Shown: piece after piece, positions 1 to 62,700 of the stretch
How positions within the stretch are numbered: position 1 is the first letter of the stretch
Layout of the letters: each line of letters opens with the position of its first letter
Origin: Asterochloris sp. CNOR1
Taxonomy: Eukaryota; Chlorophyta; Trebouxiophyceae; Trebouxiales; Trebouxiaceae
DNA length: 64,000 bases
Assembly (NCBI GenBank): GCA_963969365.1
Contig: OZ017752.1
Location: forward strand, 2,914,001 to 2,978,000
Direction: 5' to 3'
Translations under genes and position numbers: made by a program
The notes under the pieces: generated by a model
What the model saw: the letters and a program-made list of their open reading frames with translations, nothing else
The model's database searches: none
What the model was told of the DNA's origin: nothing

Positions 1-3000
1 GTCAACAGCCAGAGACCAGCGGGAAATGCAGGTCTCTGGTGATGCAAATGCAGCACTGCCATCTGAGGCTGCCATCCTGCAGCTGCTTGCCCCACATGAC
101 TGTCCTGACACAAGCTCAGCAAGCATGCTGCCAGCAGAAACCAGCCAAGAACTCCATGCGCTCTGCATGGCAGTCTCACACCTCATCCAGGATCTCCTGC
201 TCCAGCTCATCCATGAGGAGGCTGTGCTAGGGCTGTGTGCTGACAGACTGGGGTGCCCAGATGATGAGCGTGTCCATGAGCAGGTACACAGGCAGTGCAG
301 CACCTCACCCTGCCTGATACCATCCACAGCATCACCATCAGCACAACTCACCCACGACGCTGCCAGCCGGGATATCCAGGTTGACCTGGTCCATGAGCAG
401 GCGGTCGCCGTAGGACTTGCACACGCTGTCGAGGTGGATTACCTCATTTCCCAGGCGCGGCCCCTGGGGGATGGTGATCGAATCCAGGGATGAGTTCTCC
501 TCAAACTGGGCAGCCTGCACACGCGGAGCAGGCGGCATGACAGACTGTGTGGCACTGTGCAAGGCCCAAAAGATCAGAGCAGGCAGGCTGTCTCTGCAGG
601 CAGTTCGTGGGATGTTGTGGGATGACGATTCTGAGGATGTGGTTCCACAGATTGACGATGGCGGTTAGGGGTGCAAGGTCTTGACTGGGAGGCCTGCAGG
701 TAGGCAGCCATTGATGGCAGGAGAGAAGGGTGATAATCCGACAAGGGGGGGAGCAACCGCCAGATGCTGCCCCACACCATTTGCTACTGACCTGCTCAGT
801 GAGGTGTTAAAGCGCACCATGCGCCGAAGACTCTCTAAGGCATTCACATTGAGGACTTTTACCACTCCCCAGACGCAGCAATGACCCTACTCAGCCACCC
901 AGAGGATCTCACAGTGCCGCATGTGCTCCAGACTCTATCAGGCATTCAGCTTAAGGATCTTCACCACTCCTCAGTAGCAGTGACCCAACACTGCCACTCA
1001 CCTGCTCAGTGAGGTCTTCGTAGCGCCGCATGCGAGCCTTGCCCTTCTTTTGCTGCCCCTTGGCATTGGAGCGCACCCACTCCAGCTCGTTGGCAAGGCT
1101 CCTCTGCAGGGAGGCCTGCTGGCGGGACTCTGACTGCAAGCAGAGCAGCTAGGTGTCGGATCGCTGACAGTCTGAGCTGCAACTGGTACATGATGGCTGG
1201 CATGCTTCTGTAGCCGATGTCAGCCGGGAGAGCTTTGCGATAGGATGTGCTGCATGCAGCAGCACTGCTGCCTAGGGGTGTAGTGGGAGCTTGTAGGCGT
1301 GTGCTCCTGCTTTTCAATTTCCGGCATACAGAGCCGTGGGTGGGCTGGGGCTGGAAGTGCAGGGGTGTTTCTCCAGATGATGGTGCTGCTTGATGTGGCC
1401 TGTGCAGTATGCAGCAGCACAGCTTCTCACAGGACTGACTGGCAAGCATGACCAGCTGCTTGTGCTGCTGCTTCTGCCAAGCCAGCAGTTGCAAAGGCTG
1501 CCTGCTGTTGTGCTCTGCCTCATGCAGAAGGCATCGGCGCTCTCTGTTTGCTACAATGACTAGCACCAAAGCCCCTGATGCAGAGCAAGACCTAGCACTG
1601 CTGGCCAGGCAGGTACGAAAGCTCCCCCCTCTTGGTGCGCAATGTCAGCGGGGTACCCTTTCTCTCCCTTCTCTTTGTACCAACAAAAGGAAGCAGAAGC
1701 TGAATGCCCACCTCCATGCGCTTTGCCTTGGCCTCCAGCCAGGAGCTGTAGTTGCCCTCATGTGGCAGGCCCTGACCTGCACACACCAGGGCAGCGTTTG
1801 TGGTGCTGATGTATCAGCTGGGCAGCCGTGCTGCTTCATAGGGCCCCGTGCCTGCAGTCTAGATCTGTTCAATCCGTGCGTGCTAGGGAGCTGAAGCTGC
1901 AGATGAGCTGCATTCAGCCCTCAATGCTTTTGCAGCCCAGCGCAGCAGCATGGCTGCCAGATATGCACAGATGCTTCCTTCTGAATTCAAAATTCAGGGT
2001 TTGCTAGCCCACCTCTGTCCAGCTCCAAAATCCAGCCTGCCACGTTGTCCAGGAAGTAGCGATCGTGGGTGACTGCCACCACAGTGCCAGGGAAGTCTGC
2101 AAAGGCGAGCCATGTGTCAGAATGAGGGGTGGCATGCTTCCATGCTGCCAAGCCCAGCAAAAGCAGCCACGCAGGCAGCGGTGCAGCAGATTGCATGCTG
2201 GTGAAGACAGCACTCAGCATGGCATTGCTCAGGCAGAAGGTACTGCATGTGTCCCTGAGCAGCCTGCTGATAGACTTCTGGTGCTGGGCAGTGGGCCAGC
2301 ATGCACATGTGCAACGCCTGGACATCCTGATCTGCACATCCTGGACGACCAGCGGTAGGTGGGCAGCTTGCTGAGGCAGGACATCACACGGCAAGGCTGG
2401 AGACAACAGGACTGCCCTAATGGCTAACCAGAGCTGTTCCGGCAGAGCATTCTTACTGAGCCTACCTGCCAGCAAGCGCCCCAGCTACTACTCAATTTGC
2501 TCACAGGTATGCAAGGCAGGTGCCTTCACCTGCCAACAAGCGTCCGGGCCACTCAACATATTCAACACTATGCAAGGCAGATGACCCCACCTGCCAGAAA
2601 GCGCCCCAGCTACTCAACCTGCTCAAAGGTATGCATGGCAGGTGGCCCCACCTGCCAGAAATCGCTCCAGCCAGGCCACACTCTCGGCATCCAGGTGGTT
2701 GGTGGGCTCGTCCAGGCAGATGATGTCTGGACGCTCTAGGATGAGGCGGGCTAGTGCAACGCGGCGCCGCTCTCCACCACTGAGGTGGGCCACCTGCTGC
2801 TCCCCTGCGGAATGAAGGCAGCGGGTTGTTTGCATTGTCAGGTGGCACTGCATGGGAGTTTCGAGCCACCAGTCACCACTGCTGAGCAGGGGGGAACCTG
2901 CTGCTCCCCTGCAAGTTGCAGGCGCTAGATAGTCCACTGTTGTCTCGTGGCACCGCAGAGAAAGGACTGGGCCGCTGGTCAACACTGCTGAGGGGGCCAC

Positions 3001-5474
3001 CTGATGCTCCCCTGCAAGGTATATGCTGGTTCAGTTGACGTTGCAGGGTCATGCCCCTATCTCACACCGCTGGCGCACACCGAGCTGACCTGGAGGGCAC
3101 CTGAGGGCATCCATGGCCCGCTCCAGCTGGCGGTCAAGGTCAAAGCCGTCCACTGCATCAATCTGTGTCTGCAGGCGCTCCATCTTGTTCATCAGGGAGT
3201 CCATGTTGGCATCAGGCTCCCCCATCGCAATGCTGACCTGGCAGGGGAACAGGAGTCTGCCTGTCAGCAACTCCAAACATGCTGTTCACCAACTCCAAAC
3301 ATGCTGTTCATCAACTCAAAACATGCTGTTCATCAACGACTGCACATTGGGGTGAAGCTCCCCCACTGCCTGGCAGACCTGCGGGGCTGCAGACCTGGCC
3401 ATCACTGCTGCCTGACCACATGGGCAAGTACGCCAAGCAGCTGTGCAGCTAGCTGGATGCAGGGACCCATCTACAGCCGCAGACCCACCTCCTCAAACTC
3501 TTTGACCATCTGCTTGACGGGCTCCAGTGCCGGCTGGATGTTATCCAACACAGAGGCAGAGTCATCCAGCTTGGGTTCCTGGTGCAGTATCCCAATCTGC
3601 ACAGAGACAAAGCAGTACACAAATTTGGCTGCATTGCTTGGGGCTCGTGCTGCAGGAGGCTGTCTGCAGGGCGTGGGCCAGCAGTGGGGGTTTCTGGTCA
3701 GGCGCTGAATGCCACCACGCACGTCGCATTGTGTGGCATCTGGTGCAGCAGAGTCCTGCAGTGTCTGGCCAGCACTGCATCGCTGCAGACTTGATGCCTT
3801 GAGCTGATGGCCGTACTGTTGACAGAGTGACCAAAACCTCTGCCAGAGACAAAATCATGTCAGGGCTGACATAAAAAACCTCATCCTGTCCCAGCCAGCA
3901 TGCCTGTCAGGGCTGCATATGTCAATATTACCCGCCAACACATCAGTGGCCTTCCTAAATGACATGCTGCACTCTGTGACGCTGCCGCTCCCCCTCAAGG
4001 TGAATGTCACCTCTAAGGAGTTGCACATGCTGCTCACCTTTATACCAGGGGCCAGCTGCCGCTCCCCATCAAACTCCTTGTCCTCCCCGGCCAGAATCTT
4101 CATGACAGTGGACTTCCCTGCGCCGTTCTGGCCGAGGATGCCGATCTTGGCCCCCAGGTACATGCCCAGATAGACGTTTTTGAGGATCTGGCGCCCGTTG
4201 GGTGCCACCTTGGTGGCTTTGTCCAGCTGCAGGATAACCTTGCGGGTTTCCTGAGCATAGGCAGCGCTGCAGGCAGAGGAAAAGCCGTCAGCTCCACTGC
4301 TGAGGTTTTGAAGGTTGCGCTTCTCAGCCTCCAGCCCCTCCAGTGAGGCTGCGTGTCAGCAGCCCTGAAGAGCAAGTCAGCGGTGCTATCTACACCAATG
4401 CTTTTGGCCCCTGCAGGAGCCACCTTGAGGCGTGAAACAAGCTGCAGGATGATTTGCGGGTTTCCTGTTCATAGGCAGCACTGCAGGCAGGGGAAGCACC
4501 ACCAGCCTCAGTGCTGATGCGTTATAGGTGGCATCGCTGAGCCTCAGGCATGTCCACTAAAGTCCTGCATGTGGGCAGCCCTGGAGGGCCAGTCAGCGGC
4601 GCTAATCACACCACTGCTTTAGGCCCTGCCAGGAAACCACCTCAGAGGCGTGAATCCAGCTGCAGCATGACCTGGCAGGGGATCCAGCGCAGAGGCAGCC
4701 CTGCAGGCACAGTATATACTTCCCAGAACTCTCATGAGCCTGCTCTGGCACCAGCCTGCCTGCAGCCTCTCCAGTCAGGTTCTGCATGCGGGCAGCCTGC
4801 AGGCAGCCGTGGCAGCCAGACAGCCACGAACGTGCCACTTCAAGGCCCCCACCGCGGCTTTGTTGAGCTATCGTTCAACCGTGTAGGTCTCCATGCAAAC
4901 AGCTCTGCCGCAGGTAAATGCAACAGGCATGTTCATCACAATCTAGGCGGCACTCAAGGTGCAGATGTCCTTGTTCTGCAGGTGGAGCAGCAGCTGACGT
5001 CAGTCCAGGAAGCCAGTGAGATCACCGGGCATCAACAGCCATGCAGGAGGCAGCCGGCAGCATGTGGACCGACGTGCCTTGCAGGGTGATGTTGCTGCTA
5101 CAGTCCTGCGCTTGTTCTGTTTTCTTCTGGACCTTGTCTGCCACTGCGTGCTGCCCCACGCAGCAGCAAGCGCCCAGCACGCGGCCATTGGAGGCAGCGA
5201 GCCTACCCGTGTGACACCACTTCTTGTGTCACCACATGCTGCCTCACTGGTATCTGTGCTGCACATAGCCTTAATTGCCTCGGACCTTGTGAAATATCGA
5301 GACACACTTGGAGCTTGCCTGTTGAGGACAGGCGCCACTCAGGCTCACCCTTGTGACGCCTCCCTGGCTTGGTCTTTGACCGAGCGCTGCTGTGCTCCGT
5401 AGCTTGGAGCTCCACCTCCACCTCCACCACCACCGCCGCCACCTGTTTTGGGGGCCTTCTTTTTCTTGGCAGCC
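1..5474 (-). CDS. EttA-like ABC-F ATPase, C-terminal part beyond left edge
   Basis: Soluble tandem-ATPase ABC-F protein; the family acts on ribosomes during translation, not in transport. Exons in transcript order, phases agreeing where checked: 5474-5349, 4266-4038, 3596-3489, 3237-3090, 2814-2652, 2096-2013, 1776-1712, 1133-1002, 514-352. The first holds a lysine stretch, about 11 glycines and APSYGAQQ. Then Walker [10 protein letters not shown], signature LSGGERRR, Walker [17 protein letters not shown], switch [10 protein letters not shown], the inter-domain arm ([29 protein letters not shown]) and the start of domain 2 ([23 protein letters not shown]). The arm and the spacing match bacterial EttA (recalled, not searched) better than eukaryotic GCN20-type proteins. 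The second ATP site is off the window. A possible tiny first exon, MMWFLP, lies near 5690 with a matching phase; no clear transit peptide is seen, so location is open. Confidence 0.92.
790..1045 (-). repeat. Duplicated 3' end of an ABC-F exon with its donor
   Basis: About 40 bases around the donor of the exon ending at 1002 recur about 210 bases further into the intron (copies near 790-830 and 1000-1040; both read acctgctcagtgaggt on +). The flanking ggcattca...accactcc segment is also doubled (near 840 and 942). Confidence 0.75.
2463..2680 (-). repeat. 62-bp tandem repeat carrying a 5' splice site
   Basis: About 3.4 units of roughly 62 bases begin near 2463, 2528, 2590 and 2651. Each starts acctgcca on + and carries the exon end TTTCTGGCAG or a near copy followed by GT on the minus strand. 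The unit at 2652 is the real exon end; the others lie in the intron. Confidence 0.85.
2776..3020 (-). repeat. Tandem copies of a 3' splice site, ABC-F intron
   Basis: Three diverged units of about 105-115 bases, each with a ctgctgctcccctgc or ctgatgctcccctgc core on + (near 2804, 2900 and 3002). The first core is the real acceptor of the exon starting at 2814. The others repeat the acceptor and its exonic neighbour inside the intron. Confidence 0.7.
3268..3345. repeat. Short tandem repeat, unit about 22 bp
   Basis: Three copies of caactccaaacatgctgttc with small changes, in the intron between the ABC-F exons that start at 3237 and 3596. Confidence 0.8.
4201..4725 (-). repeat. Three 220-bp units repeating an exon start and acceptor
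   Basis: The start of the ABC-F exon at 4266 with its acceptor (near 4202-4280) recurs near 4421-4490 and 4636-4715. All copies keep the cacct start and a gcaggc acceptor block on +; the first two also keep the gcgggtttcctg core. Spacing is about 219 and 215 bases. The outer copies have lost the reading frame. Confidence 0.75.
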
Positions 5475-6560: not shown

Positions 6561-8933
6561 TTAGCCAGGCCCATAGCTTCCGCCAAAGCCGGCAAATCCC
6601 ACGCCTTCCCAGGTCTGCATGCCTGAGCCCTCAATGCCAATGGTGTCAGCATCCTGCAGGAGGAGATGTACAGCAATCACTCACTACTCGGCAGCCACCT
6701 GCAGCTCAATGGTGTCAGTATCTTGCAAGAGGAGATGCACAGCACTTGCATGCTACCCGTCAACACGACTGTGCAGCTCAGCGCCGCTGCCACCATGCAG
6801 GTCTGAGCATGCAGGCATGCACCCACTGCCCAGCACCCTGCAAGCATATGGAAGCAGGCAGGCTTGAAGTGGCAGGCACCATGCAGCCAGGCATTCCCTG
6901 CACAGCACCCATAGGTCCATGCAGGTTTGCACATGCTGCCACAGACCATGCAGTTCAGTTGATGTCCTGAGGTGCTGGCTGGCCGAACTCCAAAGGTGAG
7001 TGCATACACAGTGAAAGATGCTGCCGTACACAGCGCGCACCCACTCCCCAGAGCCATCAGCATAATGATTGAACGCCCCACAGGCCTTCCGCCGCTTCTT
7101 TGCGTGGGCTGGCTGAGTAGCCTCCATGGGGTCTTGTCCAAAGACAAGTACCTGCAGCAAGAGAGGCACAAAACTAGCAGAACGTAGCAACAGCGTTCTG
7201 ATCTATGAGCAAACACGGCCTTGGATTGTCTGCCCCACGACGAGCGCCTGCTGCAAAGCACTGGTTGACGGATGCAGCCAGAGGCCCCGCCGATTGTCAA
7301 GCACTTGTAGCCAGGCACCGCTTCACAGGTGCCACCAAAGGTGAGCTGTCTGACAGGGCCAGCATGCTGTCACCTGAGAGGTGTCTGGGGATGACTGAGA
7401 TGTCTGCAGCGAAGAGGGAGCCCAACCAGCACCTGATCAGCTTCATGGGTGCCTGCTCTGCAGCTGGCCCACCTGCGCTTGGTATTGGCCCTGATGGCTG
7501 CCTTGCTTGGGCAGTCTGTGTTTCAGCGCTTGTGCCCTTCTGTGCTGCTGCCCCGGCCTCATCTGTCCTGCCTGACCTTGAGAAGGATGGCGCCGAAGTG
7601 GACGTTGTGGGGCGACCTCTGCAGGACGGAGAGCCATGCTGCAGTCCTGTATGAGGCTGAACCAGACAGCCGCAGCTGACAGCCACACATCAGCATGCTG
7701 CAGGTCCACAACAAACACTGCACTGCAGACAGCCCACCCAATGACGATATTGCATACATGTCTGGGCAGAAACAAGTCGCACACAGCCCACCTGCCAGTG
7801 GGAAGCACTTGCAATGCTTGGTGTGCCACAGGTCTGCGTGCGACCTCGACTCACACTGCCCACCTGCATCTTTCGGCCATGTCTCATCCATCAGAGCCAG
7901 CTCCTCCTGCATGTGCTGCTGGACCTGAGACTCTTGCAACTGCAATCCGCAGATGCGGCACTTTAGTTCAGGCCTCTGCCTGATTGGTGCCTGCCTTGCA
8001 TCCGCACTGCTCTCAGCTTTTGATTGCTCTGGCAGGGGGCTAGCATGCTGGTGCCTGGCACTGTCTGCCGCACTGCTGCCCTGGGGCAGCCGCGAGCAGG
8101 TTGTGTGTGACAGGCCGTCTGCAGAGTCATTTTGTCTTGTCGCAGGGCAGCCAGCCCTGCTGCCTTGCTTTGCAGGCTGCCGGAGCTGAATCTGTCTATG
8201 AAACTCCTCCTTGGTCTGCCTGCTCGCCTGATTCAGCAGACCCAGCAGCGGCCTGTGTAGTTGATTGCGCTCTTCCTGCTGGGTGCTGGGGGCTTGTGCT
8301 GACGGCCTGCAGCAGTGTCAACACTCCATGCAGGCCAGCTGGCGCTGCCATACAGTACTTCAGCATGACGCACCTCTTGTCTTGCTTCCTGCTCAGTGAA
8401 TGCTGCAGACTCTGCTGGACTTTGGCGTCAGAGGGCATGCCCTTTGGAGTTGTGCAGCTGGTTACATTGCACAGGGGCCACAGTCTGCTGACAGGGGAAC
8501 GGGTCAACGCTTGACCTGCCGGAAAAAGGTCTGGCACTTTATCATGTGGCTTTTGTGATGGACAGTTCGGTTGCAAAACTCGTTGCACTGACGCCAGTCT
8601 TCATCAAGGGTTGCTCTTCAGAGCTCGCAGAGCAGCAGTCAATTTGTGCTGCTCCCTGACGGGTTTCAGGCAAGATGGTCGTCTCTTCGATCGATCCCTG
8701 GCAGATTTAGCTTGTCTTGATTGACCCTGGCCCACCCATGATCGATCCAAGGGAACGCCTTGTCTACAGGGCCCCATCAGAATGGCAAGCCTTAACTCAC
8801 TCAGTGCACTGGAGGTACAAAGACTGTTTTTTGGTCTTCTCACCTCAACACAGCGTGATGACCTGCCGCCGCACTTGATCTGCATGGCATCACGGAGCCC
8901 TGCATGGCCAGCCTGCAGCTGTACTGCAGCCAT
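6561..8933 (-). CDS. Unnamed protein with a CxxC zinc-finger-like motif
   Basis: Likely exons in transcript order: 8933-8844 (starts MAAVQLQAGHAGL), 8306-7864, 7618-7473, 7151-7008, 6653-6561. The last four agree in phase; the join from the first to 8306 does not, so a linking exon is missing. The long exon is hydrophilic (QQEERNQLHRPLLGLLNQ) and ends with KCRICGLQLQESQVQQHMQ followed by EELALMDETWP, a Cys-x2-Cys plus His arrangement that could bind zinc. The 7151 exon has a basic KKRRK patch. The protein ends GVGFAGFGGSYGPG. The finger and the acidic, glycine-rich tail faintly recall the central region of RNF220-type E3 ligases, but no RING domain is visible. Treat the function as unknown. 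Confidence 0.5.
6636..6752 (-). repeat. Duplicated acceptor of the last zinc-finger-gene exon
   Basis: The exon start and its acceptor (caatggtgtcagcatcctgc on +, near 6638) recur 71 bases upstream in transcript sense (near 6709), with AG changed so that the second copy reads cttgcaag on the minus strand. Confidence 0.75.
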
Positions 8934-9707: not shown

Positions 9708-12700
9708 CTCCCAGGCACGCCTCAGGCTGCTGTGCAGGCCACATCTGCTGTGACCAGTGCGCTAGATGGGCACAGCAAGCCTCCAGCTGTGATCACCCAG
9801 GCCGCCGATGGGGCCGTGTCCACTCACCGGGGGGCTCACAGGCTGCTGCCGTCCCCTGCAGGTCTTGCAGCTCCCTGGCTGCAGCCTGGCCCTTTGCACT
9901 GCATCCAATGAGACATGGTAGCTGAGCGCTGACGCAGCTACATCACAGCCTGCTGCTCACCCCGCAGGTCCCGCACTTTCCTGAGGGCCCAGGTCCCTGC
10001 CATCCAGCTGTGCGCTCTCAAGGCGGTGGCTGCCAAGGAGTTGACAGGCATGCTGCAGAACAAGTCTGCCTACCTGGTGCAAGTGCTCAAGGTGAGGCCT
10101 CTGTACTTTGGGACCTGTTGTGAGCACAGCCGGGTGCTCTGCACTGCTGAGGTGAACACATCTGCCAACAAACAGAGCTGCCTGTTTGGCCCTGTTGGCT
10201 GTGTCGCTGGCGCAAGTCCGGCGCCTCAGCGATGTGATGGTAAGCATATCATTGACTGACGCCAGCATGCTGGCTTGCTTGCAGCTGCTTGCTGTGTGGG
10301 GCTCCAAGATACCTTCAAATATGGCCTCAGCAGCAACTATACCTGCTGCAGACACTGCGTGCTGAAGGACCCCGGGCTGCTGCCACTGTGATGGATTGCG
10401 GACTTGAACGGCGCCAGAGCAACCCGCACAGCGACACTGAGGCTGCCCACTTGTCCAGCAGTGACCCCTCAGACTACCAGGCAGCCTCTCAGAGGGCTGA
10501 CTTTGATGCAAGCAAATACAAAACTGCCTGGTGAAGCTGAGCACTTGATGGTGCTGCCCCGCTGCAGCTAGACCTATACCATTGTGACAGCCAGTCCTTG
10601 CTTGCAGGTGTCATTAGTATCCTGAAGGGAAATGTGAATATGGTGAGGGACTGCCTGCTGTCTGATGCCATTTCCGAGCCCATCACTGTGATGTGCAGCT
10701 TGCAAATGCTGCTTATTGCCACAGGCGTGGCCTGTTTGTATGCTCACTCAGATGCAGAGCTAAGGGCCTCTCAGAGGGCTGACTTTGATGCAAGCAAATA
10801 CAAAGCTGTCAGGTGAGGCTGAGCACTTGTTGGTGCTGGCCCTCTGCAGCTAAACCTTTGCAGTAGCCAGTTCCTTGCTTGCAGATGTCACTTCCATGCT
10901 GAAGGGAGGTGCAAATCTGGTGAGGGGCTGCCTGCTGTCTGTTGCCGTTGCACAGCCCGTCTCTGTGATGTGCAGCTTGCGAATGCTGATCATCGCCGCA
11001 GGTGTGGCCTGTTTGTTTGCTCACTCAGATGCAGAGCTAAGGGCCTCTCAGAGGGCTGACTTTGATGCAAGCAAATTCAAAACTGTCAGGTGAGGCTGTT
11101 TACTTGCTGGTGCTGCCCCTCTGCAGCTAGACCTTTGTGAGAGCCAGTTCCTTGCTGTGTCACTTCCATGCTGTGTCACTTCCATACTGAAGGGAGGTGC
11201 AAATCTGGTGAGGGACTGCCTGCTGTCTGTTGCCATTCCCCAGCCCATCTCTGTGATGTGCAGCTTGCAAATGCTGATCATTGCCACAGGTGTGGCCTGT
11301 TTGTATGCGCACTCAGAAGCAGAGCTAAGAGACAGGCGCGCCAGCAGGGTGGAGTCGTCTGCGCCGGCTTGGTGCAGGGCGCCTCCTGGGCTGACGAATG
11401 CACAAGTGGCTCTTGCAGAAGCTTGCACAGTGCCTGTACAGCGCAGCAGCAGCGGCAGCATTGTGCCTGCCTGTCTGCTTGCTATATACAACATGACAGC
11501 CAAAGCTTGACATCAGGATGCTATGACATGTGAAGCCTGCTCAGGTGGTGCACAGCAAGCAGGGCCTACCGGCAAGACAGCAGAGCTCTGTATATCTGTC
11601 TAGCTACCCGCTATGCAAACATACAATCCAGGCCTCCTCTGTACTTGGGACCTACAGGCGCCTGTTCCGGTGCAGATTCACAAACAGGCCCCAGTGTGCA
11701 TCATGTGTCCCACCGCCATGCAGGTCATGGATGCGGAACCTGAGCCTATCCCAACACCACCTCGCAGGCAGGCCAAACCTCAACCTCCCAAGGCTCCACC
11801 AGGTGCAGGCAAGCACTGATCCTCATTGCCCTCTTATCTCATTGCTTGTCGCCAGCAATGTTCCTTACCTGACAAAGCCAGCAATGCTTATCTAGGCGCG
11901 GCCATGCTACAGCAGCAGTCCTCAGGTTGGGCCAAGGTCACTGGGACACCTAGAACTGAGTAGCATGCTGTCACGCTCCTGCTGCATGTATCGTGAATTG
12001 TCAGCCAGTCATCAAAGTACTGAGCATTCCCTCTCACGCAGCAGCGCTCACGACTTTGAATAGCCCAGGCAGGACCTGCTGTAGCCAGCAATGACCCTCT
12101 ACCTATGCCGAAGCTGAGCCACAGGCAGTGGCGCCGTCTGTGAGCATGTCATGCAAAGGTGTTGCCGCTTACAGATTGGCGCCTTTGGACTATTGAGCTT
12201 GGCAAGCATATGTGCCTTCAGGCTTTGGAGACCTCATGGAGCAGGCAGCGCAGGAGCTGTACTGGCCAGCAGGGAGCGCCTAGTCAGCGTCACGGTGTCC
12301 CTACTGATCTGCAGGCAGGGCATGCGTGACCAGCCTCTACCAGAGTGGCAGTGGGTGGACCCATGTAGACCTGCTGAGTGTCTAAGATAGGAGTCGTCAC
12401 TCCTTACCTGCAGGCAGTGAGGCCAAAATTTTGAGAGGCCCTGAGCTGCTGGATACCATCTTAAGTGTTGTCATTCTTCTGCTGCAGGCAGCGGGGGCAT
12501 CTGCGATGAGGCAATGCACAAGCTGCGGCGGCTGTACACGACCCTGAGCATCATGCCAAAGGACATGGACGACACTAACAAAGACCTGCTGGCACAGTTC
12601 AGCCCGCAGCAGCAGGTGCAGCTGGTGTGGTACCTGCAATGTGGTGCTCAGCAGCATGTGCTGCACACCAGGCCTGCAGGAGCTTCAGGCAGAATTAACT

Positions 12701-15700
12701 TGCAGCTGCAGATAAGGCTCTCTGGTTTCTGAAGCCCTGTGCTGAGTGGTGTCATTGCACTGCACATCAGGCATGCGGGTGTCTCAGTCTAAATACTGGC
12801 CCGCAGCTGCAGGTATGGCTGCCGTGGTACCATGATGCTTGTGCTAAGCAGCGCTGGTGTCCTGCATACCGGGCATATTGCCTCAGAGTACAGCTTGGGT
12901 CCGCAGCAGCAGGTGTGACGACCCATCTGATACCTGCAAACAAGCACGGCTACCCTATGCTGAGCCACGCTTGAGCAAGTCTGGACTCTAAGTGGCTTGC
13001 CGACTGATGGATCTGTGCTCAGCAGAGCTGGCGCCTCGCACAGGCACAGTGTAGTTTGCTGCAACTGATTGCCATTGCCACAGGCATGCACACGCATCAG
13101 CATGCTTTTCATGAGCATGGATATGAGCTTGACTTCTTGACCTTCGGATGGACATTACATACCTGCACTTTGCATTGCTGCAGGTGTATGTTGGACGTCA
13201 CAGCAGCGGTCCGTGCTGACACCAGGCGTGCTGTGCTTGCCACCCTGCGGGCAGACCCCTTGGTCCTGAGAGCTTCTGGATGTCTGTGCCTGTAGGTGGA
13301 AATGGTGCTGCAGATCGAGAAAGAAGCTGGTACCCACAAGAAGGTGACTGCCACCTCAATGCTGCAAGAAGCCGTTGCCCATGAGGCAGATGAGACAGCT
13401 CAAACAGCAGGGCCTTGTTATGCCTGTGCTCTCCTGCTGTGGCCTCTGGTGCTGGCCACAGACTGGGAACCCACCATCTTGAGCACTTTTTGAAGCCTGC
13501 CTGTGGTCGCATGCAGCCTCCCCTGCTTGTTGTGCAAGCAGATGCCACAGCTAAATGTTGCCTTGCACTTTATGCATGCCCCATCATCTCTGCTGCTCAT
13601 CAATGACCCGACTGACTGCAGAACAAGCAGGGCGCCATCCAGCGTCTGCTGGCCAGCAGCTTGAGTGAGGCGGCGCAAGCAGCATGGCTGATGAATGGCA
13701 GCCAGTCACCAGATTCATTGCAGGCGCGGCGCTCATCAGGTTGGTCTGCACAGTCAAAAGCGGCATGCTGTCAAGCGCTAGCCCCAGCTTGTGCCATTTA
13801 CTGCCAAGTACTCATTGCCATGGCTTTGTTCCAGGACTCATCTCATGCTTGGCAGCTTCCTGTCAGACTGAGAATCGGGTCACACCAGGCCAGCTGCAGG
13901 CAAGGCACAGCAGACACAGCTGCGCATTAGAGATGTTTTCGGGCATGCCAACGAGTCCAAGAGGCAGCAAACAGGGCTTGGATGCCAGCTGCTATACTAC
14001 CTTTGGTCGCGAAGCAATGAGCCAAGCAACTACTTGCTTCTAGCAACAAGTTGCATCCTCCTTCCGCCCTTGTGCGTAGCAAGCACAGCGAAGCTACTAC
14101 CTTTGGACGCGAAGCAATAAAAGCAAAGCAAGACGCATCACTAGCAACTTGTTGATAGGAATTGATTGGGGCTTCAGAATGCCTCTGGGATGCCTCTAGC
14201 TGTGCACCCTCACAATGACGGCAGGCCAGATCTTTGGTACGCTTGTGTTGCTTGCTACGCATTTGCTGCAGGGCAAGGCTTCAACTACCAGGACTCTGAG
14301 CGTCAGGCAAGCAGCCCAGATCTGCATCTGAACATGACGTAACCCAGACCAAGCTTTGCCTCGAGGTGAGCACAGGATACTGAATACAGCGGCAGCTTGA
14401 GAAGATGCGCTGTCTGACATGAAATGCTGGTAGCCATCATCTGCGCTCGGCTGGAGGGAAACCCGACAGCTCTCGGGCCCGACGGCGATGCTCTTGTGTG
14501 AGCCTCGTCCTGTCTGGAGCCAAGCAGCAGCATGCCAGACTGTTCCTTGCTGGCATCTTTGCACACTCATATGCTTTTCAAGGTAGACGCCTTTCAAAGT
14601 TGTTTGCGATTTTGTAGACTCAAAACCGCACATGCCGCAACTGTCGGTGCACCTGCTTGCCAGTAGCTTGTACCACCTCTGTCAGTCTGATCTGCTCTGA
14701 ATGCAGGCCGCTGAGGTCCTGAGGGACCTGTACAACCACAAAAGGCTGCGCCGCGGGGACTTGGACGCCCAGGCCAGGAGCTTCGTCAGCACCATGCCCC
14801 CTGAAGTGCAACTGCAGGCGCGTGAGTCTCCAACATCCTCAGCACATGGCTGGCCATGGCGCCTCCAGTGTCACTTGAACAGCCAGCCATGTGCTGAGGG
14901 TGTCGGGTTGCACTGGCTGTGTCAAGCTGCGCGGACATCTGCAGCTGGCCTGGAGGTCAGACCGGTGTGCCTGCTCATACAGGTTTGGTGCGCCCCTATG
15001 TAGAAAGCTGGGGGCAGGTTCTGCTTGGGGGTTACATGTCCTTCCTCTGCCTTGACCATAAAGTGTGAAATCATTTCACTCTTTATGATCAAGGCAAATG
15101 AATGAAACATGACTCCCAAGCAAACCCCCAAAAATTTTAAACTTTTTGATGAGATCCCGCTGCCTGCTGAGCTTGTGCCGCGCCTGTCTCTCTAATTTGC
15201 GGGGCAGAGGGTGCCTCAGCAGCTCATGATGTCAGTGGTCTGACAGCTTGAGTACTTGCGAGCTTGGCAGCTTGGGCGCTTCGTCAGCTGCTCACCTGCA
15301 CGCCCCTGATTTGTGTGCATGCAGGGGGAACTTGATGTGCCACCGTGCTACTGTGCCACCACCAGAAATAAGACTGGTCGCTCCCTGTTGCTATGCTTGT
15401 CAAGCAGCCCTGTCTGAATGGCTACAGGTGTATAGCCTGTCCCGACCCCCTTGCTGGTCAATCCTAGTATGTTCCCTGACACAACACTATTGGATCCAGG
15501 ACTGCAGGTGCTCAGCACGCTGCTCTGAAACTCCAAGCGTGCAGCTGCATTGCACCCAGTAAGAACCAAGCACAGGCCCACACTTGAGAGCTCTGAAACG
15601 TCTCAAAGCTAGGTACCCCAAGAGGCTGCACCATCATTCAGGCAACATCCCTGTGTGCGGGCGTCGAGCAGGTGATCTGGTGTGCTGCAGGTGCTGAACC

Positions 15701-37909: not shown

Positions 37910-39280
37910 ATGGCAACCATGAAGCCATCAATGGCTGCCGCGAGCAAGCCTGGCCTGGAGGAGGAGGGAGCCGCGATCCACAGGATCCGCATCACACTGA
38001 CAGCCCGCAATGTGAAGAACCTGGAGAAGGGTGAGGCATGCACTGGCCGCACTTGGGAGCAGCAGTGAAGGAGTCAGGCACTCTCGTCACCAGGATTGTT
38101 GTGCACGCATCTCTTCTCACAGTCTGGGTTCAGTTGCGCACAGCAGGCCGCAGCCTGCCTGTGTTGCTGCCTAGGCGCCAGACAGCATGCGCACTGGGCT
38201 TCATCAGCACGCACAGCAAGCTTCTACCCTCCCAAGCCATATAAGGGACTGCTTCTGCTGCTCAAGGCACAGTGCAGGCGGCGCATGCAACAGGCTCCAC
38301 GGGTTTCTGTTGCACAGAACCATGTCAGTAAGAAGATCTGTATCAAACTGCACCCTCTCTCTCTTATGCCTCCCTCCTGCCGGCTATATGTGCGGGGTTG
38401 CCGCTTGCAGCTGTTGGGGCGTACGCTTGTCATGCAGCCCTGGTGGTTCTCCTGCCTAGCCCCAGTTGGTCAAAACCAAATTTGATCCCTACCTGAAGGG
38501 TGCGTTGACTTGCTCACTGCAGCCTGTGAGGCGTCCTCCTGTCATGCAGCCCTGGCAGGCGGGTTGCCTCACCTCAGGCCATTCAACTGGCGCAGACGGT
38601 TCCTCCCCTGCCTGCAGTGTGCGCTGACCTGATCAAGGGTGCCAAGGACAAGCGCCTCAAGGTGAAGGGCCCTGTGCGCATGCCCACCAAGGTGCTGCAC
38701 ATCACCACCCGCAAGTCCCCTTGCGGTGAGGGAACCAACACCTGGGACAGGTGAGTGCCCCGCACCTGCTGGCAGCTTCTTTGAGTGCCTGCCATGCTGC
38801 TGTGGGCATGCTGCAGCTGCTGTAGTGGCCTCCTGCTTTTGCGGAAGCTGCTCGGCTGTGCACGTCTCTGCAAGGCATAAGACAGAGGCACAAGCAAGCA
38901 TTGCGGGCCCAGAACCTGCCGTTAGAGCAGGGACCTGCATGTGCTGCCTGCTGCTTGTGTTTGCGCTCCGTTTTGCCCCCTGTCAGGCATACACTGTGCC
39001 CTGCAGGTTTGAGATGCGCATCCACAAGCGCCTGATCGACCTGCACTCCCCTGCTGAGGTCGTGAAGCAGATTACTTCCATCAGGTGGGGGCCTTGCTGT
39101 TGACCCGTCCACATGTTCAAAGTCTCCGGTGCTCACATCCTGGCAGCAAGGGACACCAGCATTGAGCCTGCGCTCACAGCTCTTGTTGGCGTCCCAGTGC
39201 TCTTGTGCTGACTCCCTGCTCGTCTGCAATGCAGTATTGAGCCTGGAGTTGAGGTGGAAGTGACCATTGCTGACATCTGA
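37910..39280 (+). CDS. RPS20: 40S ribosomal protein S20 (uS10)
   Basis: Complete four-exon gene: 37910-38030, 38618-38750, 39007-39084, 39235-39280, all GT-AG and in phase, giving about 125 residues. It reads [113 protein letters not shown] and ADI. This matches eukaryotic uS10, recalled, almost residue for residue. It is a component of the small-subunit head that helps bind 18S rRNA near the mRNA channel. A TGTAA lies 64 bases past the stop. The first intron (about 590 bases) is long for so short a gene. Confidence 0.98.
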
Positions 39281-45617: not shown

Positions 45618-48600
45618 TCACTTCAGGAGTGGCGCTGTCTCTCCCACAGGATAATGGTTGTGTGTTCCAGTATAGCGGACTGCAACAGAGGCTGTGTCTG
45701 CCAGCAGCACCTGCCAAGCAGCATTTCAAGGTTGGTCAAACAGGCTGGTTGACAGGAGCAGGAATAAGACCTGCGTAACATGTAGAGTTTTGCATTACGA
45801 TCGATCCTACCTGAACGTGCTTCTTGGCCTGACAAGCCTTGTGGCTGCATTTGAAGTAAAGACGTGGAGCACAACTGCCCACCAGGCACTTCTCCCCGTA
45901 TTTCCGCCACCTGCACACTGGCACTTGGCCACAATCAGGCAGGTCAAAAGGGTCACTGACACGCTGCAGCTGCAGCAGCACACAAGCTAAGAGGCTCAGT
46001 CTCGCCAGGAGCCTTGCATAGCCTAGTTGGCTTGGTCTACATGACACCTCACAGAAGCCGCATACTGTTCAGCAGATCAGCACTCACGTGTAGCCATCGT
46101 CAGGCAAGTCAGACTGCTGCAAGTGGCGACTCCAGTCCCCAGACCTCTGAGCCGCGCTGCTGCAGAGCGGCTGGCCTGCAGGGGGCAGTGCAGGCATTAG
46201 AGTGTGGGAGGGCTGCTCATGCCACCAGTCTGACAGCTTCATGTCGATAGCACTGTCACTTCTGCTTGACACTCGAACCGGTCATGGGCTGTGGCATGGG
46301 TTGTGGCATGGGCTGTGGCAGAAGTCACATGATTCGAGCATCATCCCACATGAGTCACATGCACAATTGCTCACCGTCTGCAGGAGACTGTGTGCCGCTG
46401 TCTGCCGCAGCGGCCCCTGCGGTCTGGTGCATGGGGACCAGGGGGTACTCAGCACCTGCCAGGCCTGGCAAACTGTTGAGCTGCCTCTGGGCTGCAACCT
46501 CAGAAGCTGGCTCTTGCCCTGAAGCCTCCCCGCCTTCATCGTCAGCACTGCAGCTGCCCAAGGAGCCTGATTGTCGCTGCCAGACAGCTGAGCGGTGCCC
46601 ACCCTGCAGGCAGACAGGCAGATTGCGCTGTGCCACCCAGCATGCAGGACGGCAGCGCAGTCGAGCTGGCGGCAGCCTCATAAGTCAGCCTGCCTGTGCT
46701 GCTTGCTGTGAAGGAACCCCTTCAGGATGTGCATCCAAGCACGCTGGCACAAGCCTGCGACAGCACAGCCTCTTGCAGCTTTTCACTGCGGATTAAGGTC
46801 CATGGAGCATAACTGCTGGGCAGGTCGGCGCACACCCTGAGTTACGGGACAGTGAGATGCACCTGCCTCACCCTCAAGCGCTGCTGCTCCCAGGGGGCAT
46901 CAGAGGGCAACTCTGAGGCCGGCTGGAGGCTCGTCTGCGTCCAGTCTGCTGAGGCATAGCTGCCATAGCCGTGCAGCAGCTGCTGGTCCTCCTGCAGAGG
47001 GTCGGCCTTGGGCTGTGGCACAGTCTGCCCTGCCACCTGCTCATGCGCAAGCTGCAGCGTGGTACAGATGGCACGCCTGCGCTTGCTGTTAGACTGCCAC
47101 ATATCAAGCAAGCAGTATACGTGTGGCGCAAACTGTCCAGGACAAAGCTATGCTGTGTCAGGAATGAAGGCTTGACTCTCCAGCAAGATGGGCAGACATG
47201 CAGCCGTCCTCTGCATATGCCAGCACCTCACCACAGCCTCACCTGAGCTGGCACAATTGCGCTGGGGTCAATGATCATGGCGTTCAGGCTGTGGTTCCCC
47301 ATCATGAGGAAGCCATGCATCAGCCCATTGCACGCTGTCATCACCTGGCCTGACAGGGCCGCCCCCTGCCGGCAGGCATGGGCCTGCACATGGCAGGCAA
47401 GCTGCAGGGCCCCTCAAAGGTGGGTTAGGCACAATTGGCCCACGCCAGTTGCCAAATGTGTGTGAGCAGAGGTGCTTCACCCACTTCGAAGGCAAGAGAT
47501 CACAAAACGTGGTGACAGGCAGTGGCTGGCAACATAGAGATGGCCAGACGCTTCACTGCTGGCATTAATGAGCCTTGTGGATGAAAGCTGCATACAACCC
47601 AGGCTGCTGCTCACCGGTGGTTCTGAGCCGTCACTGCAGTACAGAATGGCCAAATGCGGCCGCCCCATCACCACCACCGACCCCAGAAATCCCAGGTCAC
47701 CACACTTCCTGCAAGTCCATTGCCACAGTTGGGCAGGCGGCCATGCACTAACAGCTCCAGGTCAGCACATTGCTTTGCCTGACGGCAGCCAGCAGTCAGG
47801 GGATGTAAAGCTGTGCAGGGACTGGGCACACGCTCCCCCCTGACCTGATATGCAGTGCCCCCACATCTGCGCACCACCGGACCTGCAGTGAGCATGTTCA
47901 GCGACTCACAAGCAGCAGCCACAGACCCAGCGCACCTGACCATGTGCCCCGTCACAGGCGTCAGTGGCATGACCTCGACGCCCTCCTGCTCGGCGCCTGC
48001 AGCAAAGGGAGCCACCACTCCCGCTGCTCCGTCGGCGCCTGGAGCTGTCCCAAGGGCCAGGACGCTGGTAGCCGCCGCACCCATCTGCAGGGAGGCGCCT
48101 GGATTGCTGCCAGGGAACTGCTGCAAGCTTGCACTGGAGGCTGGCGCGCCTTCAGAGGTGCCCTGAGGCTGGGTCACTGGCAGGATTTGGCTGGCTGACA
48201 ACAGGTAGGGGTTGCTGACTGCGCTGGCTGCAGCTGCCTGGCTCCTTACGAGGCTGCTTGGTGCCTGTGGGGCACACAGAGAGCAGCTGCAACTTCTCAT
48301 GGTGTTGGCTCAGCTTGCTGCTGGCAGAAACTTGGCAGGTATAACTCCCGGCTTGATGGCCACCAGCAAACAGCACCTATCGTTGTCACGTAGTGCAAGG
48401 CACAAAGAGGTGTCTTGTGCAGCGCTTCATAGCTTTGCAAATGGAAGGTTGCAGCTTCAAGCTCGGGCTCTGACCGGCCTGTCCTGCTGAAGATGACTCT
48501 CTGCCGGCCCTGCCTCCTGCTGCCAGGCGGAGGCCCGCAGGCGCTTTGCTGTGGGCGCCTGATCGTGGAAGCTGGATCTGAGGCTCATGGTCATGTCCAC

Positions 48601-49804: not shown

Positions 49805-52800
49805 ATGGATGAGATCAAAGAGGTAAGCTGCAGGGCCGCCCAACGTCTGCAAACTAGGAGCAGTGCTCAACAGGATGTGTGCTGCAGGTAGTCACCAGGA
49901 CTCTGGAGCGGCGTGGCGTGCTTGCGCAGCTGAAGGTACCCCAAGTGTTGAGCTTGGACGCTTGGCAAGCCCTCCAGCACTCTTAAGGGCATTCATGTGC
50001 AGGCTCAGCTGCGAGCTCATGTCTTTGCCGCCATCGATGAAGAGGAGGTCAAAACCTCTGGCAAAGGTACAGGGCACCAGCAAGCTTTGCTTTCTACGAG
50101 TCTATCTATGGCGCCATGCACTAAGCAGTGTACTTGCAGGCTTCTCACAGCAGATTCACAACCCATTCAAAGACAAGCTTCTCAGCAACAACGAAGGCTG
50201 GTCTCTTTCCTGCTCTGCCCTCCAATGCTGCACGCAAGCATGTAATCCCGCTGAGTCTGGTTGCTGTGCTTCAGGCATTGTGCTGGCCGGACTGGTGAAG
50301 GAGTTTCTGTCCTGGAGCCATCTGGCACAGACTGGCAAGGTATTCCTGCACTCAATACATGCTAGCATTGCACATACCTCGAGCAGCTCCCGGTGGCCAC
50401 TGCACTGCAAGGCCACTGAACTGAGCAGGCTTGCCCAAGCAGCCTCTGGCACATGCTGTCCAAGATGGAGCATGCAGGTGCTGCTTTGAGCTGGTTTATC
50501 TGGCTGTCTGTGGGCTGTTCGCTGCCCAAGGCGCACGTTCCACTCTGCAGTGCAACGAGCACGGTTGCCCAAGCTTCCTCTGGCCACTGCGTTACTGCAC
50601 TGCACTGTGCATCTGCCTTCTCAGTGGCTTTGCCCAGCCCCCTCCTGATGTCTGTGCCGCCCAGGCACTGCGGCACCACGGCCCCCACGCCTATCTGTAC
50701 TTCTGCAACTGAAGGTGTATGATGTGGAGGTTGACTGCAAGCAGATGCCGTCTCGGGAGCAGCTGCGCAATGAGCTGGTGAGTGCCCTGCATGCTGCTGT
50801 GTGCAAGGCTGCTGTCGCCAAGTGATTTCATGTCCAGTCTGTGAAACCAACTGCCATGTCTCTGCATTGTGCCTGCTTGAAACATGGAGAGCTGTGTGCT
50901 GGGTCAGATCCAACTTAAATGCACTCTGGCAGTCGCATGGCACCACTGGGCCGGGGCATGACTGCACCAGTGCTGAGTGCACATCCACTCGGCCCGATGC
51001 CCCTCATGTGCTGCAGGGGCTGGAACGTGAGCACGACGAGCCCCTGCTGCTGTCATTGCTGCGCATCCACCTGGCTGGCGGCAGAGCCTCCCCAAGGTTC
51101 AGCAGCGGGGCGGTGACGCGGAAGAACGGGGCGATGCCGGCCAAGCCTGGGGGTGAGTTGCTTCTGGGGTCACCTGCTTCATCAGGATAGGTGACAGATT
51201 GGCTAGCTCTCTCCCCTGAAATTGTGCGCAGCAGGTACGACCAGCTGCACGATGGTGGGCTCATCTGCGTCTCAGTTGCTGCGAGGAACGCTTTGGACAT
51301 GTCGCGGTCTGGCAACAGTATCGAGCATGCTGCGCTGCTGCGGCCTGCAGAGGGCTTGATAGTAAATCAGTACCCCTCTACTGCAAGGGTCTCATGGCCG
51401 GCCTGTAGGGCATATTCTCAACATAGCAGAAGGCATGCAAAGTTCACCAAGCAGCAGAATACAGCATCAAGGTGTGCATCTAGCTGCAGGGTGGTGCTGT
51501 CTGCCAACAGGGCACATCGTCAACATACCTGCCACGGGCATGCACAGCTCACCAAGCAGCGGTGACAGCGTCAAGGTGTTTCCATTCACCTTATTGGTGT
51601 CTCCGTCTGCCTGCAGGGCACATCGTCAACATACCCGCCACAGGCATGCACGGCTCCCCGCACAGCGGGGATAGCATCAAGGCGCAGCATGGAGGCAGGC
51701 CGGTGTCCCCAGACACAGTGGAGCAGGCTGCCGCGGCAGCTGCTGTGCTGCATGGGCCCGGCCACAGCAAAGCCCAGGACGCTGCAAAGGCACACCCCGC
51801 GCCTGCAGCAGCGTCCAAGGTGGGGGCCAGGTGGCCTGTGACACAGCACTGGGGACTGACTGCTGCAGAGCAGCTGCCATGTCAGCTGCGTGTGGCAGCA
51901 TGAATGTCAGCGTTATCTGCATCTCGAGCCGCCCGACCTGCCCTCAATTTAAGGGACATTGAGAGAAAGATGTGCGCCAGCCACAACACATCGGCCAGGT
52001 TCTGCCTGTACAGAGTTCAATTTGAGATAGTCAAGGCTCAGCAAGCTGGCAGCATTGTCTAACAGTCAGACATCCAGTTGCCTTCCACCCAAAACAGCTG
52101 CCAGCAGTGCAGCACAACTCCTGCATGTCAGTTATTTGCCCAGACCTGCAGCTTTGGGCAGGTCAACACTCGCAAGCGCCCTTTCCTCAGAACGACTGCT
52201 GTGATCCAGGCAAGCGGCCTAGGACCTGGTCTGGGGCGTCCTATGGAGCACTTGACAGGGGCTGAGCTGGCTGCAAGGGAGCTGCGCCCCACAATCTCGG
52301 GGGGGTCAGCCATCAGGTGAGGGGCCTTCGCCGCTTGCCCTGGCGTACGCTTATTACTTGGGCAGCCAGGATCTGGCTTAGCAAATACTTCTGCAGCCGT
52401 CTGCCCACAGTGCATCATTATTTGGCAGCTGTGAGCTGGGAGCTGGCCCAGCTTGTGCTGTTGTGGCCAATTGTACTGAGTGCATGCTCATGTGGCAGCC
52501 ACACACGCTGGCCCAATCTGTACTGTTGCCTCAGAGAAATAGGCTTTGCCACTGAGGGTGACCTGATTGGCACATGCTGACAGCGCCACAGGTGTTGCCA
52601 CTGCTGCTCGTGAGGTCTGCAGAGGACGTTCAGATTGAGTATGTGGTCATTGTACAGAGAGGACATTGAGACTGAGTGTGGTCGCTGTGCAGTGAGGACA
52701 TCGAAATAGAGTATGAGGAGGAGGGAGCTGAGGCAGGGCCACCGTATGGCAAGCTGGCAGGGCCTTCTGGGCAGCAGGTAACCCCAAGTTTTGTTCTCCA

Positions 52801-56596: not shown

Positions 56597-56726
56597 ACAG
56601 CTCTGCTGGAGAGGAGCAGTGGGAACGTTGATCTTGCAGAAGGCCCCAGGCACAGCGCCAAGGTCACACAGCGCTGCCCTGCATCCACAAGCCCACCTCA
56701 AGCTTGATAATCACCCCAGGGCGCAG

Positions 56727-59700: not shown

Positions 59701-62700
59701 CTGCCATCATCAAGCCTCCTCTGCCGCTCTTGATGGCTGCATAGTACTCAGCCATGCAGCTGTCAAAGTTGTCTCCTGTCCCCCGCGGCTCAGAGACCAC
59801 AGTCTTGAGGGCGCAGATCTGGGCCCAGGTGCCAGTGGCCTGCAGCAGTATGGGGTTGCCAGCGTGATGATGTGCCTGGTGCCCTGGACTGACGCTATAT
59901 AGGGCTCTTTGTTGGTGTGCATACTTGCAGGCAAGGCACCAAAGCGTCATCCAGTGTGAGCTAAGCCGACTCTAGGCATGAAAGTAAGGGCTTACCTGCC
60001 AGCGGGAGCACAGCTTGTTCATGAGGCTGTAACTGGGCAGGAACATGAGGATGCCATCAGGGACAATCCTGCATGCGGTCAGCACCACCTGCAGGATTGA
60101 AGCCTACTTTGAGCCGGTTGCTGGACATGTGAACATACGTCAAGCGCAGTGAGGCCTTCTGCTGTGAGGCCAGGTGCATGTCTGGCCTGAAGAGCACAGT
60201 TCAGGAACTCAGACAGGCAGCACCCCTCCAAAGGTGAGCAGCACCTTCCACCAGCGGCAGAGGAATCCTGAGGACGTTGGAGACGGGCTTCAGCTCACAA
60301 AGCAATAGCTGTCACCTACGGTTGAACGAGCAGCAGCTTGCATCAAGACGATGTACTTACGCACCACCAGCAGCCCTTAGAAGCTGCAGTGCACCAGCAT
60401 GCAAATTACAAGGTCTAGGCTCACCTACACCCAATGCGCTGACATGCTCACCTGCCAATGTACTGACATGCTCACCTGCAGCCAATGTACTGATCCGCTC
60501 ACCTGGCCCAGGCTGTCTTGGAAGGCAGTGGTGTCTGCCACTCTGTAGGTGGCATTCAGGTTGCTGCCGTCCGGCCCAGCGGAGACAGCGCCTGCCCAGA
60601 CCTGGCGCTTCATGTCCACCACATGGGGCGCCTCCAGTGTCAGGGGGAACCCTGTGCCCAGCTGCAGCACACAGGGAAACTCTTCAGATCCTTTTGCTTG
60701 GTCTGCACCCGCTTTTCCCCACAGCTTTGAAGGCAGGCAGGGCGACTGCTGGCAAGGCTGCCCTTGGCTGCAGGAATCATGGAACGTGATTGTCAGGGAA
60801 TACATGTTTAATCACACAGGGCACCTGCAGGGCTATGCCCATCTAGAGAAGGGTTCAGGCGTGTCAGTGACAGGACACCCTGCACCATATGGAGCACATC
60901 CCTCCCGTACTTGTCTTCACAGGCCCACATGCAAGCTGCTGGTGGCCGTCTTGTGCTCCCCTGGTGCCGGCCAATTTCTGCCAACCAGCCACTGGGTGAG
61001 GCACTAGATCTGCCAGAGACAGGTTAGCAAGATACTTGTTATTGCTGGTCATAGTATGAAGAACCAGTGTGTCTCACCTCGGAGGCGAAGGTGTCCATGG
61101 GGGCCAGAGTCCCTGATGTGAGGACGACGCAGCGTGCAGCCTCGCGCACCCCTCTGAAGGCCACTGCAGGGTTCATGGACCACAGGCACAGCTGCACTAC
61201 CCAACTGGAGGCACTGTTCTGATCGTCAACCCGCCTGAGTATTCGAACAGACATGGATCTGTCAGTAGTGCTCCTCAAAAGCCCAGAAAGTCATGCGCTC
61301 CCCATGGTGAGCAGCGTCATCCACCTGAGGGTTCTACAGGGCCAATGGCAGGCAGGAACAAGCGTGTGCAGAAGGCTGAGACCGGGCGATGCTGCGCTAC
61401 GAATTAGTCGTTTTGCATACCTGAAGCGCCTGTCATTCCTGCTGCGACCAGCGTTCTGGCCCTGAGGCATCCACCGCTGCACTGCCAGGCGGTAGTCCTG
61501 CACATTGTCCTGCCCACTCTGCAGTATGTAAATGTCAGGTGGACGCTCACCAGGCATGCCAGGCGTGGACAGACTGCAGCCGCCAAGCTAGCTTTGCATG
61601 AAGTGCTGGCCACTCATGCGCAACACTTCGCTGTGAGCACACTTTGGCGCCAGCGCCACGTCTCAGTGTGAGTATTGTGCAGCAATGCTGGCGTTCCCAT
61701 GTTAGTGGGTCAGGCGTACAGGAATGCCAACACAGTGCAAGTTCAGGAACAGCAGAAGCTGACGTTGAACCATTTGGCGTGGATGTGTGCCTACATGCCC
61801 CTTTAAAGACCTGGTATTGCACACTGCCAGCGTCGTAGACTGAGCAATGTGTGCGGCAATTGCGCAATTTAGCCCAGCCAAGCAGCTGGCCACTTCGCTA
61901 CATATGCTGCCGGCACACTCACAGCATACATCAGCTGCAGGACCGAGAGAAGCCGTGAGATGACACTGAGTGCTGGGATCCCCTTGGCCAGGGCAGCTTG
62001 GCTGGCAGAGCCTGGGCTGCTGGTCGGCCTCTCCCCTGGCGCTCCTGAAGCAGCATAGAATCCTCTTGTCGTGCAGATTAGTGTGGCAGGATGACACAGC
62101 TGGATGCTGATGTCAAGGGCAGGGCATCAACAGCCTGGCTGCTGTTGCTTGCTCTTGGCTAAGCGGTACTAACCAAGAAGTTACTGCCAAAACGACAGGC
62201 TTGCATGGTGCTCAGCTCACCAGCTGCCCTCAAACAAGCCTGTCCAAGCCTACTGGCTGCTTTGAGTTCCTTGCCCGCCAGAGTGCTGTGTGGCAGTCCC
62301 ATCTGACTCTGTCCCTGCCGACTGCAAGCAGCTCACATCAGCGGCGCGACACCCACCTGGCTGCTGCCTCCTTTTCTCCTCTTCTTGCTGTTGTCGAGCC
62401 TGTTCATATGCTCTGTGCAGCGTCTCCACCTCACTGGGGCCAAGTCCTGCTGCCGCCAGCTCTGCCAAAGCCTGCAGCTTATGGGTGACGGAACCCAGCT
62501 GAAGACCAGATGCTTCACTGAAGCTATCTGCTGGCCAGGCGTTTTGCAGAAGAGGCTGTTCACCACGATGTGATGGGCACAGGTTAGAAATCTGAGGTGC
62601 TGGTGTTCAGTAAATCAGTATCCAGAGGCAGTGTCGCCTAGACTAGGTGAGGACTCTAGTAGAAGGTGGCAAATGCACAGCAACAGCACTGCTCGGCGCA

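Follow-up and report, generated by a model that had tools for sequence, protein, structure and literature searches.

Tandem copies of splice junctions in green algal introns most likely reflect, for the most part, ordinary duplication filtered by selection

In the AGGT model of intron gain, an AGGT-bearing piece of exon is duplicated in tandem, and its two copies supply the donor and acceptor ends of a new intron. One study reportedly described internal duplications, some of them with splice sites, in many genes. Passages of PMC3443670, PMC4974935 and PMC3629103 present tandem duplication as an accepted route to introns. Passages of PMC8355091 describe small tandem duplication as a common kind of mutation that break repair can produce and, with reference to Messer and Arndt (2007), as the most frequent type of short insertion (<100 bp) in the human genome. 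For Chlamydomonas and its relatives, part of PMC8226300 describes the advantage of introns well over the minimum length as unknown and the driver of their length as likely ancient. Among the matches listed, no paper was titled for junction-spanning tandem repeats in green algae, which is not proof of their absence. Here we analyzed a 64,000-nt stretch of Asterochloris sp. CNOR1 (contig OZ017752.1, positions 2,914,001–2,978,000 of the forward strand; “the window”), in which an initial annotation had reported “junction echoes”, that is, tandem copies of the DNA spanning an exon-intron boundary in the adjacent intron of many genes, and had read them as a possible active source of new introns.

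Our analysis showed that about one exon edge in 12 has a decayed copy of itself within its own intron; the pattern most likely reflects mainly ordinary mutation filtered by selection, and not an intron-making machine. We predicted genes with a home-made semi-Markov gene finder that had the window as its training set and was run under 14 settings, and kept exons supported by at least 5 settings. The resulting set contained 108 exons (one added by hand) and 96 introns with a median length of 282 bp, 93 of which start with GT. The tests left out exons predicted inside a 277-bp array (starts 10600–11210) and introns shorter than 40 or longer than 1600 bp. A low-complexity model at 19.1–20.0 kb was left out of the junction and array counts, still contributed to the total of 30 arrays given below, and remained among the introns in the gapped z>4, junction-versus-interior and donor/acceptor likeness tests.

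A search of 60-mers over 500 bp on both sides of each junction found an echo in 15 of 187 junction windows (13 at z>5 and two by a margin of 3 over every one of 40 controls), and all 15 echoes lay in the junction’s own intron. They were distributed over the ABC-F gene (4), the “zinc-finger” gene (1), the hnRNP-Q model (3; 9967, 12624 and 15849), the hydrolase gene (2; 35012 and 36861), the IFT38 gene (2; 40443 and the weak 40903), the FOP-like gene (2) and the FANCJ gene (1). Thus, each of the seven genes named earlier has at least one case, the count bears out the original “at least a dozen”, and the pattern is indeed common to unrelated genes, with duplications of varied divergence (70–96% identity). 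A gapped, junction-centered test gave z>4 in 19 of 176 junction windows (9/88 donors and 10/88 acceptors); in four of the 19 the alignment did not span the splice site, and these were left out of the retention count. By the ungapped arrays, 10 of 193 junctions lay within a repeat copy that reached 4 bp or more to either side of them (1001, 2651, 2804, 4266, 6653, 12624, 15849, 35012, 51616 and 52692), junction 6653 being part of the hand-added exon, which was noticed through its repeat.

The repeats at junctions belong to a wider population. With offsets of no more than 1200 bp allowed, the window contained 76 local ungapped repeat pairs, compared to an average of 0.75 in four order-3 Markov sequences and 1.25 in four order-5 ones; the 70 pairs scoring at least 17 formed 30 arrays. 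Because some units are contiguous over the full period, as in the ~215-bp unit at acceptor 4266, we regard the repeats as tandem duplications. Pair identities spread over 70–96%, with a median of 0.85 in junction-crossing pairs (n=15) and 0.88 in others (n=44, with 11 pairs at 19.1–20.0 kb excluded). The share of bases lying in repeat copies is 7.6% for introns, 5.7% for exons and 8.0% for the remaining sequence; the exon figure falls to 3.6% once the repeats at 19.1–20.0 kb are excluded. Short tandem duplications are old and scattered through the non-coding sequence of the window. Self-BLAST within the window (E 1e-4) detected no introner-like dispersed sequence common to introns of different genes, and only 2 of 47 rows were far or inverted, both of them local palindromes; introners and dispersed repeats were accordingly rejected as a source at this threshold.

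By raw count, the repeats are not concentrated at junctions; their density is even in non-coding DNA and depleted in coding DNA. The 60-mer echo rate was 8.0% at junctions, 10.0% in intron interiors (132/1321), 8.5% outside gene models (86/1016, in stretches that may include missed genes; 95/1034 when the exons at 19.1–20.0 kb were counted) and 3.9% in exon interiors (8/207). Under the z>5 rule the counts were 13, 118, 80 and 6, respectively. Among 102 junction windows and 102 interior windows from introns of at least 260 bp, 17 and 12, respectively, reached z>4 (Fisher p=0.42). Circular shifts of the arrays gave 13.1 crossed junctions expected versus 10 observed, and 8.4 ± 2.1 crossing arrays expected versus 10 observed (p=0.31). 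These densities do not support a process aimed at junctions. A lack of enrichment at junctions genome-wide, or like density in intergenic DNA of equal composition, had been named at the outset as a result that would refute the genome-wide claim, and by raw density, at the scale of the window, such a result was obtained.

The junction-related arrays are listed below by coordinates and strand; arrays recovered by Tandem Repeats Finder are marked TRF.

770–1018, minus strand: ABC-F (EttA-type) donor 1002/1001; exon end and GT echoed at 770–823, ~210 bp into the intron (z 13.7)
811–878/913–980, minus strand: further repeat between the copies around ABC-F donor 1002, suggesting ~105-bp units
2457–2680, minus strand: ABC-F donor 2652; 61-bp units, ~3.5 copies, best echo keeps GT (TRF)
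2785–3018, minus strand: ABC-F acceptor 2804; echoes at ~2891–2912 and 2983–3015, the best of which keeps AG
4239–4797, minus strand: ABC-F acceptor 4266; ~215-bp units, ~3 decayed copies through the intron
6637–6744, minus strand: acceptor 6653 of the last exon (hand-added) of the “zinc-finger” gene; echo 69 bp upstream, in which CAG has become CAA
9836–9967, plus strand: acceptor 9968 of the hnRNP-Q gene model; gapped echo at 9836–9893, AG kept (z 8.4 gapped, 4.7 in the 60-mer test)
10483–11329, plus strand: 277-bp unit in the hnRNP-Q gene model; three copies, 86–92% alike, with a good CAG/GTGAG donor in two of the three (TRF); possibly a triplicated (pseudo)exon with flanking intron
12602–12852, plus strand: donor 12624 of the hnRNP-Q gene model; echo at 12799–12852
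15819–16097, plus strand: donor 15849 of the hnRNP-Q gene model; echoes at 15922–15955 and 16031–16097
34786–35034, plus strand: hydrolase acceptor 35013; 50-bp units, with three copies in the intron (up to 96% alike) in addition to the exon copy (TRF)
36496–36861, plus strand: hydrolase acceptor 36862; weaker echo at 36496–36538 (z 5.8)
40369–40635, minus strand: IFT38 acceptor 40443; echo at 40585–40635, ~175 bp upstream in the gene
51432–51707, plus strand: acceptor 51617 of the FOP-like gene; 106-bp unit in two copies, AG kept (TRF)
52621–52715, plus strand: acceptor 52693 of the FOP-like gene; 35–37-bp units, ~2.6 copies (TRF)
60419–60505, minus strand: FANCJ donor 60503; tandem of four donors (0, +27, +51 and +78)

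The unit length in the clear junction cases ran from ~24 to 215 bp, compared to about 30–280 bases in the initial annotation; the 277-bp array crosses no junction of the exon set. The statement that copies often keep the AG or GT stands in so far as the splice dinucleotide survives in 13 of 15 spanning echoes and some make good sites, but the comparison with flanking dinucleotides (0.59 kept, p=0.023) is weak. We do not use motif retention as proof, as two of the alignments with a kept motif are weak outside it (flank retention 0.32 and 0.33).

To the question of which copy is spliced, homology gives a consistent answer where it reaches. The alignment with EttA passes ABC-F junctions 2652 and 2804 without a gap and shows one of two residues adjoining 1002; it starts just inside the exon at 4266 and has no bearing on that junction. 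The alignment with human FANCJ is unbroken across 60503. Because these alignments continue through the exon-proximal site, that site would keep the protein, indicating that the exon-proximal copy is the one used in ABC-F (2652, 2804 and 1002) and FANCJ (60503).

These observations are probably best explained by untargeted tandem duplication combined with selection, in which copies across a junction are retained if the additional one ends up in the intron. Slippage, end-joining or a similar form of break repair would produce short tandem duplications (units of ~20–280 bp) at random places in the nuclear genome, and the copies would then decay by drift. A duplication over an exon edge would yield the order exon end, intron start, exon end, intron start (or its mirror image at an acceptor). 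If the exon-proximal site were still spliced, the protein would be unchanged and the extra copy absorbed in a longer intron; otherwise, the allele would be lost. We infer that such a splicing filter on random duplications leaves echoes on the intron side, at the ordinary non-coding density, and few in exons. Consistent with this model, junctions, introns and sequence outside gene models have similar densities and exons a low one, identities are alike in crossing and other pairs, the exon and intron parts of the echoes are equally diverged (0.733 versus 0.738 in 16 loose band alignments, which over-extend), and echo distances show no preference for keeping the frame.

A challenge to untargeted duplication comes from a different null. 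A fairer null keeps exons intact, because exon-damaging duplications should be purged; purging predicts fewer echoes at junctions than in intron interiors, and the observed crossings exceed such nulls. Several results weigh against the filter on this ground. With the hand-added exon counted, the exon-preserving null gave 4.2 crossings versus 10 observed (p=0.004), a simulation with decay and slower exon change gave 4.6–5.1 of 27 versus 10 (p 0.011–0.022), and array extents gave 5.0 versus 11 (p=0.0045). Relocating array extents globally and locally, with the hand-added exon left out in six of the seven variants, gave 10 observed without that exon versus 5.0 (p=0.020), 6.2 (p=0.051) and 6.5 (p=0.068) expected. 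Restriction to better supported exons gave 9 versus 4.4 (p=0.012) and 8 versus 3.2 (p=0.001), and a weaker contrast was obtained beyond 6 kb (6 crossings versus 3.6, p=0.11). With the hand-added exon again left out, the ratio of junction to non-coding echo density was 0.76 (bootstrap 0.39–1.34) compared to 0.30 and 0.35 in simulations, values as low as these occurring in fractions of 0.005 and 0.016 of the bootstraps. Slower decay of exon copies was rejected as the whole cause of the excess, the simulated effect being too small; the equal divergence of exon and intron parts is also unlike a slower exon copy, though the alignments over-extend. Taken together, these comparisons suggest that junction-crossing arrays are about twice as many as exon-preserving nulls predict, and we call this excess suggestive because the arrays are few, four of them lie in one gene, and the result depends on the choice of exon set. 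The excess could mean that duplication or its retention is truly favored at exon-intron boundaries, with echoes about two-fold over the neutral expectation, owing to breaks at co-transcriptional structures or to the benefit of a spare splice site. Pointing the same way, the best-supported junctions had echoes in 11 of 75 windows versus 48 of 538 windows in the interior of the same introns (p=0.14), and the dinucleotide was kept in 13 of 15 spanning echoes versus the central dinucleotides of 35 of 54 intron-interior repeats. However, the raw intron density is not exceeded, ABC-F alone supplies 4 of the 10 crossings, the contrast fades beyond 6 kb, one case came to notice through its repeat, and the better-supported exon subsets were picked after the first results. 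We therefore consider a true boundary bias unlikely. Slightly more doubtful still is the broader proposition that in this lineage duplication or its survival is concentrated about two-fold at boundaries, so that introns swallow copies of their own splice sites and each gene is left with spare ones that could later come into use.

Two further readings give the echoes a function or a product. Duplication of an AGGT-bearing exon piece could create new introns, a mechanism accepted elsewhere (PMC3443670, PMC4974935), and the initial annotation had seen it as active here. Comparison of donor and acceptor surroundings within the same intron, made for 83 introns of at least 120 bp, detected no likeness (mean 8.32 for own and 8.61 for swapped pairs); one intron exceeded the 99th percentile (0.8 expected), out of register with its splice sites. 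AGGT stood at both ends of 9 introns versus 9.3 expected, and echo distances are unlike intron lengths. On the donor/acceptor likeness and the AGGT counts we rejected intron creation, which appears highly improbable as the source of these repeats. Retention of echoes as alternative splice sites draws on several echoes that score like the real site and above all on FANCJ, where the donors at 0, +27 and +51 (CAG/GTGAGC) have equal scores and the extensions to +27 (VSGSVHWLQ) and +51 are in frame and open, while +78 brings a stop; this donor tandem may be a candidate for alternative splicing. As a general rule, frame-keeping alternative sites were rejected, since only 4 of 15 echo distances are divisible by three (FANCJ, whose distances fit, is not among the 15). 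Moreover, decoys of similar strength occur elsewhere in introns (per kb, 5.1 acceptors and 1.6 donors score at least 5, echoes included), so that echoes are not special in this respect. Retention for alternative splicing is thus very unlikely to explain the echoes as a class, and untargeted duplication with a splicing filter remains our preferred account.

The window resembles eukaryotic nuclear DNA, with GC contents of 52–64% in 2-kb steps, many introns and a GC3 (GC at third codon positions) of 74%. Pfam and PDB sequences served as a partial check of the gene models. ABC-F, the hydrolase core, ribosomal S10/S20e (gene at 38618–39280) and Cluap1/IFT38 were clear in Pfam; the hnRNP-Q acidic domain was barely over its cut-off (27.7 versus 26 bits) and FOP_dimer slightly under (28.3 versus 29.4 bits). 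Comparison with PDB sequences identified the ABC-F protein as EttA-like (498 bits) and the helicase as FANCJ-like (282 bits). Of the gene names first given, ABC-F, hydrolase, IFT38 and FANCJ were thereby upheld, hnRNP-Q and FOP are borderline, and Pfam found neither LysM nor a zinc finger in the gene pieces scanned. The nuclear ABC-F gene (352–5474) is of bacterial EttA type, its score with eukaryotic ABCF1 being 171 bits. Predicted exons at 45883–48084 encode GYTWRKYGEK, which resembles the motif of WRKY factors, and had no match in Pfam. A small cupin-like gene (31637–32794; Cupin_2 E=0.0017, under cut-off) lies upstream of the hydrolase gene. The first 25 kb of the window had no match among phage records; scans of viral contigs gave 16 loci for ABC-F (50–54% identity), 3 for FANCJ (25–28%) and none for IFT38 or S20e, and were not used. 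Among repeats away from junctions, an IFT38 intron contains a ~140-bp inverted repeat (41944–42085, 73% match to its own reverse complement), and a smaller one lies at 14830–14906. GGC-rich repeats of 21–60 bp at 19191–19635, in a predicted open frame, are probably low complexity. An array outside gene models (24150–24579) has offsets of 90–147 bp and multiples.

Duplication over a splice site adds its full length to the intron, a simple route by which introns can lengthen while the protein stays the same; such duplications are one candidate cause of intron length in the context outlined in part of PMC8226300. If the two-fold concentration at boundaries were true, introns would lengthen by copies of their own splice sites and each gene would hold spare sites in reserve, as in the FANCJ donor tandem. 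A caution also follows, in that tandem repeats at junctions can look directed when they need be no more than random and filtered.

Among known systems, a published case of intron gain is alike in that its unit comprises an intron's 3′ end together with the start of the following exon, and in that a second, 83-bp duplication inside an intron left the gene structure unaffected; it differs in having produced a new intron and exon, whereas here the extra copy is absorbed by an existing intron. Unlike the study of internal duplications mentioned at the outset, compared here by recall and citation, we saw no intron creation. The 24-nt tandem repeats with proto-splice sites in fission yeast, as a passage of PMC3629103 presents them, resemble the FANCJ donor array in consisting of short units that each carry a splice-like site; the yeast introns are reported there as new, and the intron with the FANCJ array has no sign of being so. 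Compared to the human short tandem duplications treated in passages of PMC8355091, the units here often exceed 100 bp, occur in several copies and belong to a green alga, and the mechanism itself was not seen. The likeness to such short local tandem duplications lies in contiguous copies of tens to hundreds of bases that spread across non-coding DNA and decay gradually: in the window, adjacent copies occur far over chance, at even density in non-coding sequence and with depletion in coding sequence.

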